IMG/VR virus record: IMGVR_UViG_3300008117_000253
Span: 1-26,362 of that record
Strand: one strand, 5' to 3'
From: a virus
Length of the DNA stretch: 26,362 bases
Positions 1,279 to 26,308 of this stretch are shown one piece after another. Each line of letters begins with the position of its first letter. Position 1 is the first letter of the stretch. A model generated the notes under the pieces. It was not told the origin of the DNA, searched no databases, and saw only the letters and a list, made by a program, of their open reading frames with translations. The position numbers and the translations under genes are program-made.

Positions 1279-1557
1279 CTATTCTTTTTTGTCAAGATTT
1301 CGAAATGTCAAACCGTATTTGAGTTGAGTCAATAACCAAACCTTAGAGTCTGTTACTGTGATAATCCAATATTCAGGACACTCTATTCCTACAGCTTTAA
1401 CATGAATTCCGAGATTCTTATTGTTAATAAAGAGGCTCCAACTTTCAGTATACTTTTTAATTTCTTTCCTCCATTCAATATAATCATTCATAAAGATATT
1501 CAAAAGAGCTCTATCTATATCGAAAGATTCATTAATACTATACATATTAGAACCCAT
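1279..1557 (-). CDS. Tandem paralogue array, member A (92 aa)
   Basis: Last gene of an eight-member minus-strand array. The family pattern is visible: W-x-L-F-I-x-x-K-N-L-G-I at about residues 40-51, and a C-terminal block VWLLTQLKYGL at about 73-83. After that it has a ten-residue extension (TFRNLDKKE) found elsewhere only in member D, so A and D are probably each other's closest relatives. Its start overlaps the stop of member B by 11 nt, which suggests translation by termination-reinitiation. No known domain is recognised and the function is unknown. Confidence 0.7.
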   Translation of the reverse strand: MGSNMYSINESFDIDRALLNIFMNDYIEWRKEIKKYTESWSLFINNKNLGIHVKAVGIECPEYWIITVTDSKVWLLTQLKYGLTFRNLDKKE

Positions 1558-1771
1558 ACTTTAGCTTAGCTAAGAGCCATTTTCGTTCGTCAATTATTTT
1601 ATATACGAGATAATGTCCCTTTACACTTACTCTGAGGCCGAGCTCTTTTTCTTCAATAAAAGAAATCCAGGCATCATACGTTGAGTCCTCGCTAAAGTTT
1701 TTAAGAAATTCTTCATGTAAAATACGCCAGAGTCGCGCATTGAGTTTACTGTTTTCTACTTCAGAGTCCAT
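1547..1771 (-). CDS. Tandem paralogue array, member B (74 aa)
   Basis: Shares the family layout: variable acidic N-terminus, W-x-x-F-I-x-x-K-E-L-G-L in the middle, then YKIIDERKWLLAKLKYGF at the C-terminus. It overlaps A downstream and C upstream by 11 nt each. The last ~30 nt of its coding sequence are nearly identical in DNA to the same part of C, E and G, while its N-terminal half is unrelated in detail. This pattern suggests repeated duplication with fast divergence of the N-terminal part. Confidence 0.7.
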   Translation of the reverse strand: MDSEVENSKLNARLWRILHEEFLKNFSEDSTYDAWISFIEEKELGLRVSVKGHYLVYKIIDERKWLLAKLKYGF

Positions 1772-1970
1772 ACTTTAACTTAGCTAAGAGCCATTTTTGT
1801 TCGTTTACTATTTTATAATTATTACTAATTACTTTTTCAGATCCTATTGGCATAATACCAATGTCTAAGTGTTTCATGAAATCATAGTAATGATTAATTC
1901 CAGATAAATACCAGAAAGGAAGAAGCTTATCATAGATGTCGTCGGATTTTATATTAGAATTCTGCTTCAT
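1761..1970 (-). CDS. Tandem paralogue array, member C (69 aa)
   Basis: Shortest member. It keeps F-M-K-H-L-D-I-G-I in the middle and NYKIVNEQKWLLAKLKYGL at the end. It starts MKQNS rather than MDS because its ATG lies inside the C-terminal extension of member D; the overlap is 17 nt, not 11. The start is otherwise supported by the conserved spacing and absence of another in-frame ATG close by. Confidence 0.65.
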   Translation of the reverse strand: MKQNSNIKSDDIYDKLLPFWYLSGINHYYDFMKHLDIGIMPIGSEKVISNNYKIVNEQKWLLAKLKYGL

Positions 1971-2253
1971 CAGGATTTCTAAAATTTAAGCTATATTTGA
2001 TTTGTGTCAAGAACCATTTCTTGGGATCTATTACCGTATATACCCAATCCATATGGCCTACTGAGTCAGGAGGCGTTTGAGTAACATAGATTCCTAGATT
2101 CTTCTCGTTAATAAAAATACACCAACGATTAAGATTCTCTTTAGGAGAACGATGTATTCCTTCTTCACTTTCTAAGAACTCTCCTAGAAAGACATCACAT
2201 AATGCCACATCTACTAAGATACTATCATATCTATTATAAGTGTTAGAATCCAT
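1954..2253 (-). CDS. Tandem paralogue array, member D (99 aa)
   Basis: Longest member. The middle motif is WCIFINEKNLGIYV, followed by VYTVIDPKKWFLTQIKYSL and an extension NFRNPDEAEF. Both the KW-FLTQ variant and the extension match member A (VWLLTQ, TFRNLDKKE), so A and D form a subtype. Its start overlaps member E by 11 nt. The N-terminus begins MDSNTYNRYDSILVD, similar in style to A (MGSNMYSINESFDID), which extends the A/D relation along the whole protein. Confidence 0.7.
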   Translation of the reverse strand: MDSNTYNRYDSILVDVALCDVFLGEFLESEEGIHRSPKENLNRWCIFINEKNLGIYVTQTPPDSVGHMDWVYTVIDPKKWFLTQIKYSLNFRNPDEAEF

Positions 2254-2467
2254 ACTTTAACTTAGTTAAGAGCCATTTTTGTTCATCAACGACTTCATAA
2301 ACATGTATTAAATCTAGTGTATATGAAGGGGTATATCTGATACCTAAGTCTTTATTTGAAATGAATAATTTCCATCCAGACCCCCTTTCAGTGTATGGTT
2401 GTTTGGCATAATATTCATGTTGAAACTTGTCCCATATATCTTCACTAAAAAATAATTTAGAATCCAT
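2243..2467 (-). CDS. Tandem paralogue array, member E (74 aa)
   Basis: Family pattern: W-K-L-F-I-S-N-K-D-L-G-I in the middle and VYEVVDEQKWLLTKLKYGF at the C-terminus. The N-terminal 25 residues are variable (MDSKLFFSEDIWDKF). Overlaps of 11 nt with D and F preserve the coupled arrangement. No transmembrane segment, signal peptide or known catalytic motif is visible. Confidence 0.7.
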   Translation of the reverse strand: MDSKLFFSEDIWDKFQHEYYAKQPYTERGSGWKLFISNKDLGIRYTPSYTLDLIHVYEVVDEQKWLLTKLKYGF

Positions 2468-2750
2468 ACCTCAATTTTGAATATAACCACATCTTTTCAT
2501 TTGTCACATAATAATAATCTGAATGTATATCTCTCTTATACAAAGCTTCATTTAATATAGAAACACATGGCATAACACCTAAATTTTTAGATTTTATGAA
2601 TGCTCTATAAAGAGAATTAGACTTTTTATAAGAGTCACAGAACTTGTCATAGATCCCGGGAATGAATATGAATTTACCTTCATCAATGCATTTATTAAAT
2701 AATGACATATCAGAGATTAATTCTTCTATAGAATCACCTTTATAGTCCAT
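2457..2750 (-). CDS. Tandem paralogue array, member F (97 aa)
   Basis: A more divergent member: the middle motif is Y-R-A-F-I-K-S-K-N-L-G-V and the end is YYYVTNEKMWLYSKLRYGF, so KWLLAKLK has drifted to MWLYSKLR. Its DNA junction with the preceding member is also less similar than the A/B, B/C, D/E and F/G junctions. It starts MDYKGDS and overlaps its neighbours by 11 nt on both sides. Confidence 0.7.
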   Translation of the reverse strand: MDYKGDSIEELISDMSLFNKCIDEGKFIFIPGIYDKFCDSYKKSNSLYRAFIKSKNLGVMPCVSILNEALYKRDIHSDYYYVTNEKMWLYSKLRYGF

Positions 2751-2988
2751 ATTTTAACTTAGCTAAGAGCCATTTTCGTTCATCAATTACTTGAAGTGGA
2801 AATTTATTCATGTCTCGAGCTTTCCTGTATATAGATATAATATATGGTTGATTTTTCTGATTATAAGTAACACTTTTTAAACCTATAATATCTAACATAG
2901 CTGACTCAGATATAGCATCATCCCTTACTTTTAAGTAAAATTGATACCAACTTTCTTTGTCTATATATAAAATATTATCAGAGTCCAT
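2740..2988 (-). CDS. Tandem paralogue array, member G (82 aa)
   Basis: Keeps the C-terminal block (LQVIDERKWLLAKLKYGL) exactly, but the middle W-x-x-F-I-x-x-K-x-L-G-I motif is largely lost; a weak remnant may be YIISIYRKARDM. This shows that the C-terminal block is under stronger constraint, or is homogenised by recombination. It overlaps F and H by 11 nt each. Confidence 0.65.
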   Translation of the reverse strand: MDSDNILYIDKESWYQFYLKVRDDAISESAMLDIIGLKSVTYNQKNQPYIISIYRKARDMNKFPLQVIDERKWLLAKLKYGL

Positions 2989-3247
2989 ACTTTAACTTAG
3001 CTAATAACCACTTCTTCTCGTCTACGATATCATAGATAAATGCACCCGGTATATTATATCGTTCTAAAGGTTCAGTAAGATTTAATCCAAAGTCACTAGA
3101 TTCTACAAACAATTTCCAAGTATAATGAAAGTCTGTTATTTTGTCTGCATTAATTTGGGGTTTATTATATCTTTGTTTGATCAACCAAGCTTCATAATCC
3201 TCATACAGAAAATGCAATAAATCTGATTCTTTATCATGATACTCCAT
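2978..3247 (-). CDS. Tandem paralogue array, member H, first gene (89 aa)
   Basis: First gene of the array in the direction of transcription. Family pattern: W-K-L-F-V-E-S-S-D-F-G-L and IYDIVDEKKWLLAKLKYGL. No NNTAAATA late motif precedes it. Instead TATGAT ends 5 nt upstream of the ATG, so the array is probably expressed from a sigma70-like promoter rather than with the late virion genes next door. All downstream members would then depend on this transcript and on coupled translation. Confidence 0.7.
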   Translation of the reverse strand: MEYHDKESDLLHFLYEDYEAWLIKQRYNKPQINADKITDFHYTWKLFVESSDFGLNLTEPLERYNIPGAFIYDIVDEKKWLLAKLKYGL

Positions 3248-3283: not shown

Positions 3284-3589
3284 TTATCTTATATTAAACG
3301 AGAAAAATTGTGTTCTAGTAGCTATGGTGGTACCTGAAGAAGATGAAGCAGAAAGGTCAGAACCTTTAGTAACGCCACGGAATGTAAATTCTTGCCCGGC
3401 GTTTAAGGTAAAGTATCCTGATTCTGGTCCTGTACCATCTGCTTTTAATTGATAAATTAAAACAGCATTAGCTCCAATATTACGAACAAATACTTCTGAA
3501 CACTCTTGATTCAATAGAGGTACTAATGCACCTCCAGCTGGTACACTCTTAGTTTCTGATTTGCAAACGTTAATATTAGTAAAAGCCAT
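3284..3589 (-). CDS. Probable small virion protein (101 aa)
   Basis: No named family is recognised. The sequence is rich in Ser, Thr, Gly, Val and Ala with alternating hydrophobic residues, as in a small beta-sandwich (CSEVFVRNIGANAVLIYQL, then GYFTLNAGQEFTFRGV). It resembles the compact decoration or fibre-associated proteins common in phages. It is on the same strand as the other virion genes and has its own late-type promoter AATAAATA exactly 5 nt before its ATG. Late expression plus beta-rich composition supports a structural role, but this is inference. A role as a head decoration or tail-tip accessory protein cannot be separated. Confidence 0.55.
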   Translation of the reverse strand: MAFTNINVCKSETKSVPAGGALVPLLNQECSEVFVRNIGANAVLIYQLKADGTGPESGYFTLNAGQEFTFRGVTKGSDLSASSSSGTTIATRTQFFSFNIR

Positions 3590-3594
3590 ACACT

Positions 3595-3602
3595 TATTTA
3601 TT
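3595..3602 (-). promoter_or_regulatory. Late promoter AATAAATA-N5-ATG
   Basis: Minus-strand AATAAATA with a 5-nt spacer to the ATG at 3589. Matches the T4-type late -10 element with predicted +1 at the start codon. It overlaps the 3' end of the next gene upstream. Confidence 0.65.
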
Positions 3603-4125
3603 CACATCTATATATCTTTTCGGAAACCTTTAGGGGTATCTCAATGTCTCTGGTAAAGGATTGGTCTCGAAACAAAACCCGGTTAGTGGGTAATATTACT
3701 AGTCTACCGGTATCCAATTGTATAAAAAAGAACTCTTTGGCTTGTTCAGGGTATCCCGAGAAACCCTCTCCATAGGGAACCACTGTGAATAGATACCTAC
3801 CCCAATCACCATTGGGTATCGTTTTACATCGCATTTCAGATAGGTAGTCATATTCTACTGTACTGAATTCCGAAGAATAACAATCCCATAATTGTGCATC
3901 TTTGGGAGACCAATTCGGAGGATTGGGAGAAAGGGATACCCCATGTGGCGGAACATTACGATAAACAGCACCCGATTCTAGGAGTAAATGGAGACCCCAT
4001 ACTCTACCGGGTATAGAAGATATCCCAAACCAGACAGCCGGAGTCCATCCAGAGGCGTGCGAGATGAGTGAGAGATCCGCCCATACGTACTGATGCTTCG
4101 GTATGTTTCCTGAAGTATGGTACAC
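3598..4125 (-). CDS. Conserved-looking hypothetical protein (175 aa)
   Basis: The protein is rich in aromatic residues and Pro/Gly, with segments such as WADLSLISHASGW, VWFGISSIPGRVWG, LLLESGAVYRN and a C-terminal ILPTNRVLFRDQSF. I believe similar uncharacterised proteins occur in other marine-type T4-like phages, but I cannot name a family. The longest frame begins at a TTG at 4149. I prefer the GTG at 4125 because ACTAAATA lies exactly 5 nt upstream of it, the same geometry as the other late genes; the first residues would then be MYHTSGNIPKH. It sits between two virion genes and is itself probably late. G+C content is somewhat higher than its neighbours. Function unknown. Confidence 0.6.
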   Translation of the reverse strand: MYHTSGNIPKHQYVWADLSLISHASGWTPAVWFGISSIPGRVWGLHLLLESGAVYRNVPPHGVSLSPNPPNWSPKDAQLWDCYSSEFSTVEYDYLSEMRCKTIPNGDWGRYLFTVVPYGEGFSGYPEQAKEFFFIQLDTGRLVILPTNRVLFRDQSFTRDIEIPLKVSEKIYRCE

Positions 4126-4391: not shown

Positions 4392-5666
4392 TTATTGAAT
4401 AAGATAGTTAGTACCATCAGTGTAAATCTGAACTGATTGGTATTTTGATGATAATACATATACTGGTGCACCGTCTATTAACACACCTACAGGTGGGGTC
4501 AATGTCACTGAGCCTGTACTTCCTATTTTCTTGTGTGTCTTAACGCCGGTATGATTTGCTACTGGCAATAATTCTACATTAATGCCGCTTTCAGCAGTAT
4601 CATCATCATACACAAAATGGGTATAACTATCACTTTGGGTATAAGATCCTGCTGTATTTATTTTTGTTAAATTAAATCCCCATGATGCAGAATTGTTTCT
4701 TACTGTTGTGTTTGTACTATTCCATTTAGCAGAATCGGCAATGACTGTTCCCAATGATGCCGCTGGTTGACCAGCACCAATAGCTACTAACCGGTAGGTA
4801 TTAGTAAATGGTTCAGCAAATTCAACAGTAATATTTGTATTGTCTGCAGATATAGCTACAAGAACAATAGTGTTAGTATCTTTATCTATTACATTAGCTA
4901 CAAAATCAGATGTACTTAGTCCATGAACATAAGTAAACACTGTATTGACATTATCACCCAGTATGTCAACGGCATATTTCATTTCACCTAATCCAACCCA
5001 AGAAGAACTTGTATCTCTAAATGTTGTATAGGTACTTTCCCAACTCCCGCTATTATCTTTTACGGTTGTATATGTACTTTCCCAATTTCCAGTTAATCCA
5101 GATACATCAGAGCCACTACTGCCTGATTCCCATATAGCTGAATTGGATGATATAAGTGTCTTGATTTCATTGATAGTACCTGACAAGTCATTACCGTCTT
5201 GCATGACGCGGCCCAAAGCTGTTATATCTCCGCTGACTAATAAGTCACCATCCATATATCCACCATTGGCATACTGAACTGCATTTGTCCCGCCGCCGCC
5301 CTCTAATGCCATTCTACCTAATTGTAGTTTGAACTTCTTTAGTTCTTCATTTATTTGAGAAGATATGTTTGTGATATCTTTGTTTTCTTCTGGTAGAGAG
5401 TTTGTAGTCTTTTGTATTGTCTCTAGTTCTTCTAAAAAATTTAAATATTTTTTTGTATCAACACTAGTATTTGTTTTTGTGTGTAATTTTTCTGGTTGGC
5501 TATAAATCAAATTTTCTTCAAAAATGTCTTGATTTATTTTTTTAAGATTACCTAATTGTTCAGATAATGTAGCGAGAAAAGAATCAAAAGCGTCAGTTTG
5601 TTCAACTTCATATTCTTTTTTAATTTTTTTATTCGGATTAACGAAAGCCGAGAAATCGCTTTTCAT
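4392..5666 (-). CDS. Tail fibre-like virion protein with coiled-coil N-terminus (424 aa)
   Basis: Residues 1-115 are charged with Leu/Ile spacing typical of coiled coil (EQLGNLKKINQDIF, LNFLEELETIQK, INEELKKFKLQLGRM). A GGGG linker near 123-126 follows. Next comes a beta-rich segment YMDGDLLVSGDITALGRV, a pattern frequent in phage fibre and appendage proteins. A short repeat with SxxWxSTYTTVxxNS appears around residues 180-225 (WESTYTTVKDNSGSW, WESTYTTFRDTSSSW) and again near 315-330 (KWNSTNTTVRNNSASW). The C-terminal ~100 residues form a beta-rich domain ending in DGTNYLIQ. It has a late promoter AATAAATA 5 nt before the ATG. Probably a trimeric fibre or appendage component; the receptor is not predictable. 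Confidence 0.7.
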   Translation of the reverse strand: MKSDFSAFVNPNKKIKKEYEVEQTDAFDSFLATLSEQLGNLKKINQDIFEENLIYSQPEKLHTKTNTSVDTKKYLNFLEELETIQKTTNSLPEENKDITNISSQINEELKKFKLQLGRMALEGGGGTNAVQYANGGYMDGDLLVSGDITALGRVMQDGNDLSGTINEIKTLISSNSAIWESGSSGSDVSGLTGNWESTYTTVKDNSGSWESTYTTFRDTSSSWVGLGEMKYAVDILGDNVNTVFTYVHGLSTSDFVANVIDKDTNTIVLVAISADNTNITVEFAEPFTNTYRLVAIGAGQPAASLGTVIADSAKWNSTNTTVRNNSASWGFNLTKINTAGSYTQSDSYTHFVYDDDTAESGINVELLPVANHTGVKTHKKIGSTGSVTLTPPVGVLIDGAPVYVLSSKYQSVQIYTDGTNYLIQ

Positions 5667-6703: not shown

Positions 6704-7000
6704 ATGGAAAATAAGAACAAAGCAAAAATCATGGGATATGTTGTTACTACATTTCTCATTGCATTTATATCTCAATTGGATCAAATTGATTTTGCATTTA
6801 GTTCTTTGAATGCATCAAAGTGGGCTGGTATGCTGCTAAAGTCAGCAATGCCGTGTCTAATATCACTCAAAGCTTTGTTTGATACCAGTGAAGTAGCATC
6901 TACTGATGAAAATTTAGGCGAATTAATTTCTGAAACTAAAACTACTATTGTAGGTGATAAACACACAACTGTTGAGACAGAAGAGACATTTAGAAATTAA
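6704..7000 (+). CDS. Small membrane protein, holin-like (98 aa)
   Basis: Residues 9-26 (IMGYVVTTFLIAFISQLD) form one hydrophobic segment. A second, less hydrophobic one covers about 40-60 (WAGMLLKSAMPCLISLKALF). The rest is a soluble acidic, Thr/Glu-rich tail (about 62-98). Size, one or two membrane spans at the N-terminus and a charged tail fit a phage holin or antiholin, but there is no diagnostic motif. It has its own late promoter just after the hsp20 terminator, and the next gene, another membrane protein, starts 3 nt after its stop. Late timing suits a lysis role. It could equally be a membrane-anchored structural or host-modifying protein. Confidence 0.6.
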   Translation: MENKNKAKIMGYVVTTFLIAFISQLDQIDFAFSSLNASKWAGMLLKSAMPCLISLKALFDTSEVASTDENLGELISETKTTIVGDKHTTVETEETFRN

Positions 7001-7003
7001 TAT

Positions 7004-7570
7004 ATGGACGATTTTTTCTTAGAAATCATAAAAAATCATTCTACTTGGTTGTATTATGCTGTATCCACAGCATTAACATTATTCTCTACTTATCTTTATA
7101 TTAAGAAGAAACTCACTAATTCAGATATAAAAGAATTTTTGGATAGCTTAAAAGAAATGCCATTATCCATAAAAGAAATAGCACAACATCAAACACACAT
7201 TTATTCGGAAATTAAATTGCAAGGTAAATTGATTTATACTATGCTAGATACATTAGAGCTAGCACATTTTCTTTGTGATGCTATGGGCAAATGCATTAAA
7301 GTAAATAGCAAATGGATACAATTAACCGGTATGTCTGAATCAGAAGCGTTAGGGCATAATTGGTTGTTATCTATACATCCCGAAGATCGTGATCACGTTC
7401 AAGAAAAGTGGCATGATATGGTAGAAAATAGAATTCCTTTCGAAGAGACATTTCGCTATCAACATAGAATCACTGAAGAAATAACAATGGTAAAATGTCA
7501 TGCTACTGATGTATTAGATGACAATGGCAATAGAGTCTTTATTCTAGGATTTTCTCGTTTGCTAAAATAG
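7004..7570 (+). CDS. Membrane-anchored PAS-domain protein (188 aa)
   Basis: Residues 14-32 (TWLYYAVSTALTLFSTYLY) form a single N-terminal membrane anchor. A short helical linker follows (about 35-80). Residues 83-186 are a typical PAS domain: CDAMGKCIKVNSKWIQLTG, then SESEALGHNWLLSIHPEDRD, FEETFRYQHR and a final strand ATDVLDDNGNRVFILGFSR. No histidine-kinase, GGDEF, EAL or other output domain follows. PAS domains sense ligands, redox state or light, or mediate dimerisation. The gene is 3 nt behind the holin-like gene under the same late promoter, so a role in sensing cell state for lysis timing is an attractive hypothesis but unproven. Confidence 0.8.
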   Translation: MDDFFLEIIKNHSTWLYYAVSTALTLFSTYLYIKKKLTNSDIKEFLDSLKEMPLSIKEIAQHQTHIYSEIKLQGKLIYTMLDTLELAHFLCDAMGKCIKVNSKWIQLTGMSESEALGHNWLLSIHPEDRDHVQEKWHDMVENRIPFEETFRYQHRITEEITMVKCHATDVLDDNGNRVFILGFSRLLK

Positions 7571-7592: not shown

Positions 7593-8225
7593 ATGTTAAA
7601 AAAATGGGGTCTGACAACAGAGGGAGAGCAAACTTCAAAAGAAGCTTTACCTGCACCACCAATGGCTGATTTGATTACATCTGCTGGTTCTATTAAATCT
7701 GTCGATAATTCAATATTCTTTTATTGTGATATTCATACACAGTCTTGTGCTGAATTAAATAGACTCCTTAGAGAAGTTGATAATAAACTTCAACAAGCAA
7801 AGATGATTATGAATGAAGAAGACTTCATTCCGACTATTCATTTAAGAATCAATAGTTATGGTGGTGATCTTTTTGCTGGTATCTCTACAGTTGATACCAT
7901 TAGAGATCTTAAGAGCCGTGTTTATACCTACGTAGAAGGTGCGGCGGCTTCTGCTGCCACTATTATTTCAATTGCTGGTAAGAAGAGATTTATTGGAAAG
8001 AATGCTTTTATGTTAATCCATCAACTATCATCTGTATGTGCTGGTACTTATGAACAGATGAATGATGGGCAAGAAAATAATAAGAGATTAATGATGCTTA
8101 TTAAAAATCTCTATAAGCAATATACTAAGATTCCAATGAAAGAATTAGATTCCATCTTAAAGCATGATCTTTGGATGGATAGTGATACTTGTTTAAAGTT
8201 CGGATTGGTTGATAAAGTAATTTAA
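7593..8225 (+). CDS. clpP: ClpP-like serine protease
   Basis: 210 aa, the usual length for ClpP. The catalytic triad can be assigned: Ser120 in EGAAASAATI, His143 in MLIHQLSS and Asp192 in KHDLWM. Other family features are RINSYGGDLFAG (oxyanion strand/loop, about 85-96) and the C-terminal KFGLVDKVI. The first ~35 residues are poorly conserved and may hold a propeptide. ClpP acts as a barrel with AAA+ unfoldases such as ClpX; in some phages related enzymes process proheads. Here a T4-type gp21 protease is present in the capsid block, so this enzyme more likely degrades or redirects proteins with the host unfoldase. It lies 22 nt after the PAS gene. Confidence 0.9.
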   Translation: MLKKWGLTTEGEQTSKEALPAPPMADLITSAGSIKSVDNSIFFYCDIHTQSCAELNRLLREVDNKLQQAKMIMNEEDFIPTIHLRINSYGGDLFAGISTVDTIRDLKSRVYTYVEGAAASAATIISIAGKKRFIGKNAFMLIHQLSSVCAGTYEQMNDGQENNKRLMMLIKNLYKQYTKIPMKELDSILKHDLWMDSDTCLKFGLVDKVI

Positions 8226-8236
8226 TCTCCTATACT
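8209..8236 (+). promoter_or_regulatory. Sigma70-like promoter TTGATA-16-TATACT-N6-ATG
   Basis: TTGATA (8209-8214) and TATACT (8231-8236) are spaced by 16 nt; the ATG follows after 6 nt. The -35 lies inside the end of the clpP gene. Predicted +1 is at the start codon. Confidence 0.6.
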
Positions 8237-8242
8237 GAGCTT

Positions 8243-9184
8243 ATGAATAAAGCTCTGCATTATGATGACGTTGCGCTAGTACCGAAATACTTTGACGGTA
8301 CTAGTAGATCAGAATTGTCAACTCATGTTACTTTAGGCAATAAAACATTTAAATTGCCTGTAATGCCAGCTAACATGAAATGTGTAATTGATTATGATTT
8401 AGCTAATAAATTACAATCAAATAATTATTTCTATGTGATGCATAGATTTGGTGTTGATAATTATGAATTTGTTTTAAATGCAAACAAAGAGGGTTGGAAT
8501 ACTATCTCTATTTCAATTGGTGTAAAGGATGATGATTATAAAATCTTAAGAAAGATACAAACGGATAATCTTTCTGTTGATTATATTACTGTTGATGTAG
8601 CGCACGGTCATTGTAAGAGCATGAGAGAAATGTTATCATTTCTAAAACAAACATTTACAAATACTACGATTATTGCGGGTAACGTAGGTACATCTTTAGC
8701 TGCATCAGATTTAATTTCATGGGGTGCAGATGTTATCAAAGTCGGTATTGGACCAGGAAAGTCTTGTATTACAAAATTAAAAACGGGATTCTTTACTCCT
8801 ATGTTTTCGACTATAAAGAATATTAGAGAATCATGTGATAGTTCTATTAAATTAATTGCAGACGGTGGTATTCAACATAATGGCGATATTGCTAAAGCTA
8901 TGGTTGCTGGTGCAAACCTTGTTATGGCTGGTAGTATCTTTGCACAATGTGTTGATAGCCCGGGAGAAATCATTAATGGTGAAAAGGTGTATTTTGGTTC
9001 AGCTTCTGCAGAAAATAAAGGCTTTAAAAAGAATGTAGAAGGAAAGAAAATGCTATTGCCTACAAACGGATTTACTTATTTCGAAAAGTTAAAAGAAATC
9101 CAAGAAGATCTACAAAGCTCTATGTCTTATGCAGGAGCATATACTGTTGATGGATTATCGAGTGCTGATTATTTAATTGTTTAA
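8243..9184 (+). CDS. guaC: GMP reductase-like (IMPDH/GMPR family)
   Basis: 313 aa TIM barrel without CBS domains. The loop KVGIGPGKSCITK carries the catalytic Cys175 and Thr177. The phosphate-binding strand ADGGIQHNGDIAKAM and the later VMAGSIFA are present. Glu257 in FGSASAEN corresponds to the catalytic Glu of GMP reductase. The segment EGKKMLLPTNG matches the GMPR pattern better than IMPDH, whose Arg-Tyr flap is not visible. GMP reductase converts GMP to IMP with NADPH, so it would shift purines away from guanine, suited to an AT-rich genome. It could still be an IMPDH-like paralogue. Its own sigma70-like promoter precedes it, and its stop overlaps the convergent spike gene by 4 nt. Confidence 0.8.
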   Translation: MNKALHYDDVALVPKYFDGTSRSELSTHVTLGNKTFKLPVMPANMKCVIDYDLANKLQSNNYFYVMHRFGVDNYEFVLNANKEGWNTISISIGVKDDDYKILRKIQTDNLSVDYITVDVAHGHCKSMREMLSFLKQTFTNTTIIAGNVGTSLAASDLISWGADVIKVGIGPGKSCITKLKTGFFTPMFSTIKNIRESCDSSIKLIADGGIQHNGDIAKAMVAGANLVMAGSIFAQCVDSPGEIINGEKVYFGSASAENKGFKKNVEGKKMLLPTNGFTYFEKLKEIQEDLQSSMSYAGAYTVDGLSSADYLIV

Positions 9185-26300: not shown

Positions 26301-26308
26301 TATTTATG
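26301..26308 (-). promoter_or_regulatory. Late promoter CATAAATA-N5-ATG (neck protein)
   Basis: Minus-strand CATAAATA, spacer TAATT, then the ATG at 26295. It overlaps the stop codon of the upstream partial gene. Confidence 0.65.

Follow-up and report, generated by a model that had tools for sequence, protein, structure and literature searches.

The window analysed here is the whole 26,362-nt stretch of DNA of the IMG/VR virus record IMGVR_UViG_3300008117_000253. Its minus strand carries, at 1279–3247, an array of eight ORFs of 69–99 residues, which we call W1 to W8 in the order of transcription. These genes and the features around them are listed below, together with their counterparts in the three other contigs that harbour the array (L008, L009 and L010).

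3598–4125, minus strand: conserved neighbour gene of phrog_3704, with a GTG start and CTAAATA-N5; it marks the locus in all four phages
3595–3601, minus strand: ATAAATA, resembling a T4-type late promoter, 12 nt ahead of the 101-aa gene; the nearest such motif upstream of the array
3284–3589, minus strand: the 101-aa gene, immediate upstream neighbour of the array; found in the window and in L010, absent from L008 and L009
2978–3247, minus strand: W1, first array gene (ORF, 89 aa), with an orthologue in L008 (dN/dS 0.07)
2740–2988, minus strand: W2 (ORF, 82 aa), a divergent member without the W..FI..K.LGI motif, overlapping W1 by 11 nt (profile E 1.5e-12)
2457–2750, minus strand: W3 (ORF, 97 aa), orthologue of L10_7 (body z 36.6)
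2243–2467, minus strand: W4 (ORF, 74 aa), the member modelled first by AlphaFold
1954–2253, minus strand: W5 (ORF, 99 aa), with the array-end tail SLNFRNPDEAEF; its orthologue is the last L010 gene
1761–1970, minus strand: W6 (ORF, 69 aa), orthologue of L10_11 (body z 32.9), overlapping W5 by 17 nt
1547–1771, minus strand: W7 (ORF, 74 aa), the fastest-evolving member relative to L008 (dN/dS 0.82)
1279–1557, minus strand: W8, last array gene (ORF, 92 aa), with the end tail LTFRNLDKKE
1036–1278, no strand assigned: non-coding region that follows the array, where the late and early blocks converge; the relatives have it conserved

The non-coding region contains repeated TTCGGAAGGCC..AGGAAAT..ATTTTTATAAAAA units, which are expanded in L009 and L010. 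Phage records name the product of the phrog_3704 gene ferredoxin, PurM or phosphoribosylaminoimidazole synthetase; these names conflict, and some of them must be wrong.

The original prediction, made from the DNA letters, had described eight small paralogous genes overlapping by 11 nt, with one exception of 17 nt. The measured overlaps from W1 to W8 are indeed 11, 11, 11, 11, 17, 11 and 11 nt. Using W1 as a query retrieved six of the seven other genes (E 8.5e-11 to 3.1e-5), which confirmed their paralogy and ruled out chance ORFs. A profile built from all members, those of the window included, scored every window member, W2 being the weakest.

The geometry of the junctions is readily explained. 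At nearly all of them, the next start codon (tATGGa) sits within the Y-G codons of the preceding gene. The stop codon falls 11 nt past that start because one frame of TAT-GGA-(ATT/CTC/TTC)-T(A/G)A spells Y-G-I/L/F-stop and the next frame supplies ATG-GA. The longer W5–W6 overlap results from the extra tail of W5. Such a tail, found in W5 and W8, is the mark of the end gene of the array; since W5 shares it, this gene was probably once the last one, with W6 to W8 added later. Most internal junctions read TATGG at the next start, and the end genes W8 and L10_14 have TACGG. Both end genes have kept K-Y-G despite having no ATG and no gene behind them, which indicates that the C-terminal block is maintained for the sake of the protein as well as for the overlapping start.

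As had been proposed, the array proteins have a genuine C-terminal block, DEKKWLLAKLKYG[ILF]. The predicted middle motif, W-x-x-F-I-x-x-K-x-L-G-I, is also real in the family, except that W2 lacks its W..FI part. Over 28 members, the G of LGI and the Y of KYG are invariant, and the W (26/28), the K of KY (27/28) and the F (26/27) are nearly so. The N-termini show no conservation past M-[DEV], which is itself forced by the overlap. AlphaFold models of W4 (28 sequences; pLDDT 84.0, pTM 0.69) and of L10_9 (34 sequences; pLDDT 85.3, pTM 0.72) agree on a compact domain in which two helices are followed by a beta-hairpin and then by the conserved C-terminal helix, which corresponds to DEKKWLLAKLKYG; the remaining members align to the two modelled ones. 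We also considered membrane proteins, an assignment ruled out by the lack of a hydrophobic segment in any member (highest 19-residue mean 1.38). The isoelectric points span 4.6 to 9.2, so it is unlikely that all members share a role based on charge, such as DNA mimicry.

In line with the original prediction, no known family was recognised. Scans of up to 34 members against Pfam, PHROGs and PADLOC (which covers defence, not anti-defence) gave no convincing match to anti-defence, host-takeover or other families; the isolated weak matches, with E of 0.002 or more in one or two members, are chance-like. Sequence searches of the PDB yielded no convincing match (best E 0.28), and tblastn with three members against 50,697 phage records gave nothing convincing. 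Among prokaryote genomes, 19 pattern matches included no relative. Foldseek and VIA searches with the W4 and L10_9 models returned nothing significant and no fold match indicative of a target; the best VIA matches were a Cascade Cas5-HNH entry for W4 (Z 3.9, 65 residues, 3.0 Å) and one with Z 2.1 for L10_9 (56 residues, 3.9 Å). We found no description of such arrays in phages in the part of the literature covered. Altogether, this suggests that the family is previously undescribed.

The major head protein encoded on the contig is of the gp23 type (phrog_138, E 5.8e-84; ~33% identity to cyanophage gp23), and the nearest relatives of its ribonucleotide reductase, at 54–55%, are those of Pelagibacter phage Mosig and cyanophages. 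Judging from these similarities, the carrier is a distant T4-like marine phage. IMG/VR was searched with array alignments and with a degenerate DNA pattern, the latter yielding 77 stretches; only L008, L009 and L010 contain the family. All three have the array at the same locus as the window, behind the phrog_3704 gene, and lower-identity relatives of that gene are not accompanied by an array. Copy number varies between these phages, as had been envisaged, with seven, six and 14 genes in L008, L009 and L010, respectively, versus eight in the window.

L008 is a near relative of the window, with a neighbour protein 97% identical. It has seven of the eight genes plus a remnant of W8, of which an in-frame internal deletion left only the two ends, and its W3 is frameshifted by an 11-nt tandem duplication. 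The 101-aa gene is missing from L008 although its other flanking genes are close to those of the window. The fibre-like genes of the two contigs (window 4392–5666, L008 3991–5145) share 67% amino acid identity over the longer protein versus 97% for the neighbour, a strong divergence that is expected for a host-range gene. In L009, past the last of the six genes, a vestigial ORF starts at the usual place and stops after four codons. In L010, all 13 overlaps are exactly 11 nt, and the end of the array resembles that of the window, with a last-gene tail LTFRNxxxKE and the same downstream DNA. L009 and L010 also encode a near-identical 222-aa protein after the array (6866–7534 and 8008–8676, respectively), although the arrays themselves differ strongly; with its zinc-finger-like N-terminus, it looks like a mobile endonuclease.

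We then compared the members between phages. For six gene pairs of the window and L008, dS is 0.135 and dN 0.030, and the ratio of 0.22 denotes purifying selection, indicating that the array genes are translated now or were until recently. Individual genes differ, with dN/dS of 0.06–0.14 for W1, W4 and W5 and 0.82 for W7. After removal of the C-terminal block, six orthologous pairs are recognised with z of 21–37 (W3/L10_7, W6/L10_11, W5/L10_14, L9_3/L10_3, L9_4/L10_5 and L9_6/L10_6); their order is kept between L009 and L010, and not between the window and L010. In a tree, the members of all phages are intermixed (deep branches being weak). The cross-phage orthologues and this intermixing imply that the diversity predates the split of these phages, and on sequence evidence each of them holds a different subset of an old repertoire. 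The orthologues have dN of 0.18–0.45 versus 0.11–0.15 for the neighbour gene in the same phage pairs, i.e. they diverge 1.2–4 times faster, which could also reflect relaxed constraint.

These data bear on the idea that the array is largely a side effect of repeat-driven recombination, with duplicates that arise, drift and vanish with little function. The damaged W3 and W8 of L008, the four-codon ORF of L009 and the high dN/dS of W7 are what such decay would leave behind. However, the strong constraint on W1, W4 and W5 and the retention of orthologues across near-saturating synonymous divergence make this explanation very unlikely.

The original prediction also held that the array grows by recombination at the junctions. 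Recombination itself is borne out by the adjacent genes L10_8 and L10_9, which are identical over the 100 nucleotides that run from the L-G-I motif up to the next start and differ in their N halves, the trace of an exchange inside the gene. The clearest break lies within the gene, at L-G-I, rather than at a junction. Genome-wide homogenisation of the junction DNA by concerted evolution was not supported, as 874/5000 and 3813/5000 permutations were as extreme as the observed data. Support for recombination at the junctions is accordingly partial.

How the array is expressed was addressed by examining sequence motifs, the 'early' and 'late' blocks being themselves assigned from gene content and motifs. 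ATAAATA (six of seven positions or better) is found exactly 12 nt before the start of nine of the 15 minus-strand genes of the window, one of the 20 plus-strand genes and 16 of the 1085 ATGs overall. It matches the late promoters of T4 and S-PM2, TATAAATA and NATAAATA (PMC2984593). Occurrences of ATAAATA-N5-ATG at this one fixed spacing before many late-strand genes include those at 26307, 24659, 21283, 14891, 5678 and 3601 on the minus strand of the window. Should the motif be a T4-type late promoter, the late mRNAs would begin on the start codon or very close to it and be leaderless; otherwise, the motif would be a translation signal. The 101-aa gene has the motif in both the window and L010. 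The array genes have none of their own, and W1, as predicted, is no exception, the nearest one being that of the 101-aa gene.

Elsewhere, in L008 (8700–11670, minus strand), a CCATCTGAAACCC-N2-AAAATAAT repeat precedes many small early-block genes and probably serves as an early promoter or a regulatory repeat. In the opposite block, small genes are preceded by a TTGCCCTGTCCA repeat followed ~16–18 nt further on by TATACT/GATACTCT-like boxes (window 39 and 751, plus strand; L008 8288 and 8506, minus strand).

A sigma70-like box had been reported at the first gene, and the array had been called early. Neither claim was supported: a consensus scan detected no site directly before W1, and the region contains fewer of them than shuffled sequences do; the array is on the late strand, behind an ATAAATA-N5-ATG gene and without the CCATCTGAAACCC..AAAATAAT element, which we looked for before the array. 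The small size and fast turnover of the genes are typical of T4-like early accessory genes, and AT-rich −10-like boxes are present just before the first gene in several contigs. Nevertheless, with a late-motif gene directly upstream and promoter scores no higher than chance, an early host-takeover gene set, as proposed originally, appears highly improbable.

The simplest reading is that transcription of the late unit continues into the array by read-through; the array may also have its own promoter. The overlaps, their uniform spacing and the absence, as judged by eye, of Shine–Dalgarno sequences at the junctions suggest that translation proceeds by termination–reinitiation. An Rfam scan of the region detected no RNA besides one tRNA.

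Another hypothesis is that the proteins are synthesised late, become packaged in the head or attached to the particle, and enter the host at infection as the T4 internal proteins do; the C-terminal helix would then be a packaging or docking signal, and the variable part would act in the new host. The location of the array on the late strand, downstream of late-motif genes and on the same contig and strand as the gp23-type head gene, is consistent with this, and the variation in copy number and content is reminiscent of accessory virion proteins. However, the members share no common N-terminal targeting sequence, and LxE/IxE motifs of the T4 protease type are not enriched (32 observed vs 27.6 in shuffles). 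We regard this hypothesis as rather unlikely, although it is the strongest competitor of the one favoured below.

The combination of a C-terminal block conserved in all members with an otherwise variable sequence might also be expected of paralogues that form a hetero-oligomer through that helix and serve assembly or tail-fibre variation, and the array lies behind the fibre-like gene and two further late-motif genes. Nevertheless, a fixed complex with 6 to 14 subunits, some of them lost, would be unusual, and there is no structural match; we consider this arrangement unlikely.

We favour the possibility, to which we attribute a probability of roughly 40%, that the array is a diversifying, multi-target set of antagonists of the host or its defences, built on a common scaffold and C-terminal helix. 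Targeting of varied host factors or defence systems, as suggested in the original prediction, is plausible. A single fold with a conserved C-terminal helix and variable N-terminal helices, in a family that diverges fast and changes in membership, fits with proteins that bind varied partners. Such phage protein sets usually face the host or its defences. The array genes would form the distal part of a late transcript and be translated by termination–reinitiation. The conserved helix may serve as a common structural or docking element, with the variable N-terminal helices binding different partners, so that the set would constitute an antagonist kit directed at a variety of host factors or defence proteins. 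Gene gain, loss and half-gene exchange, as compared over four contigs, would shift its target range. The late-strand position fits less well with host shut-off or early counter-defence.

We put forward with considerable doubt the proposal of a counter-host 'weapon rack', a translationally coupled array in which one small fold with a fixed C-terminal docking helix carries swappable N-terminal binding halves. Recombination at L-G-I and at the start–stop overlaps would generate new in-frame combinations, and the 11-nt overlap would maintain coupling regardless of which gene comes next.

That phage accessory genes change fast is already known. A naturally occurring array of as many as 14 different paralogues, with the same 11-nt overlap and visible half-gene exchange, is a clean system for asking how viruses diversify a set of proteins while keeping the operon intact. 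If its members bind different host or defence proteins, it would also offer ready-made inhibitors built on one small scaffold.

Comparisons with known systems reveal both similarities and differences. The ArsR/PadR/MarR winged-helix regulators have the same helix–helix–hairpin–helix order and make up much of the weak Foldseek list, with TM scores of ~0.3–0.37 and rmsd of 5–8 Å; none is among the VIA matches listed at Z of at least 2, and the members may nonetheless have such a fold. A 92-aa protein of an uncultured Caudovirales phage (A0A6J5L0I7, BFVD) has the best TM score among the matches listed for both models (0.63 and 0.56), and its E values of 0.17 and 4, with ~10% identity, provide no evidence of homology. 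The internal proteins IPI, IPII and IPIII of T4 are variable accessory proteins of T4-like phages, and in this respect they resemble the array. Their capsid-targeting sequence is conserved, N-terminal and cleaved by the gp21 protease. In contrast with this N-terminal conservation, the conserved block of the array proteins is C-terminal, and no cleavage motif is enriched. Another parallel is dmd-tifA of T4, also a case of tandem gene amplification in a T4-like phage, in which segmental amplification by short-repeat recombination is tied to counter-defence (TifA, 85 aa; PMC9391042). The dmd-tifA copies are recent, lab-selected repeats (PMC9391042), whereas the array consists of old and highly diverged paralogues connected through 11-nt overlaps.
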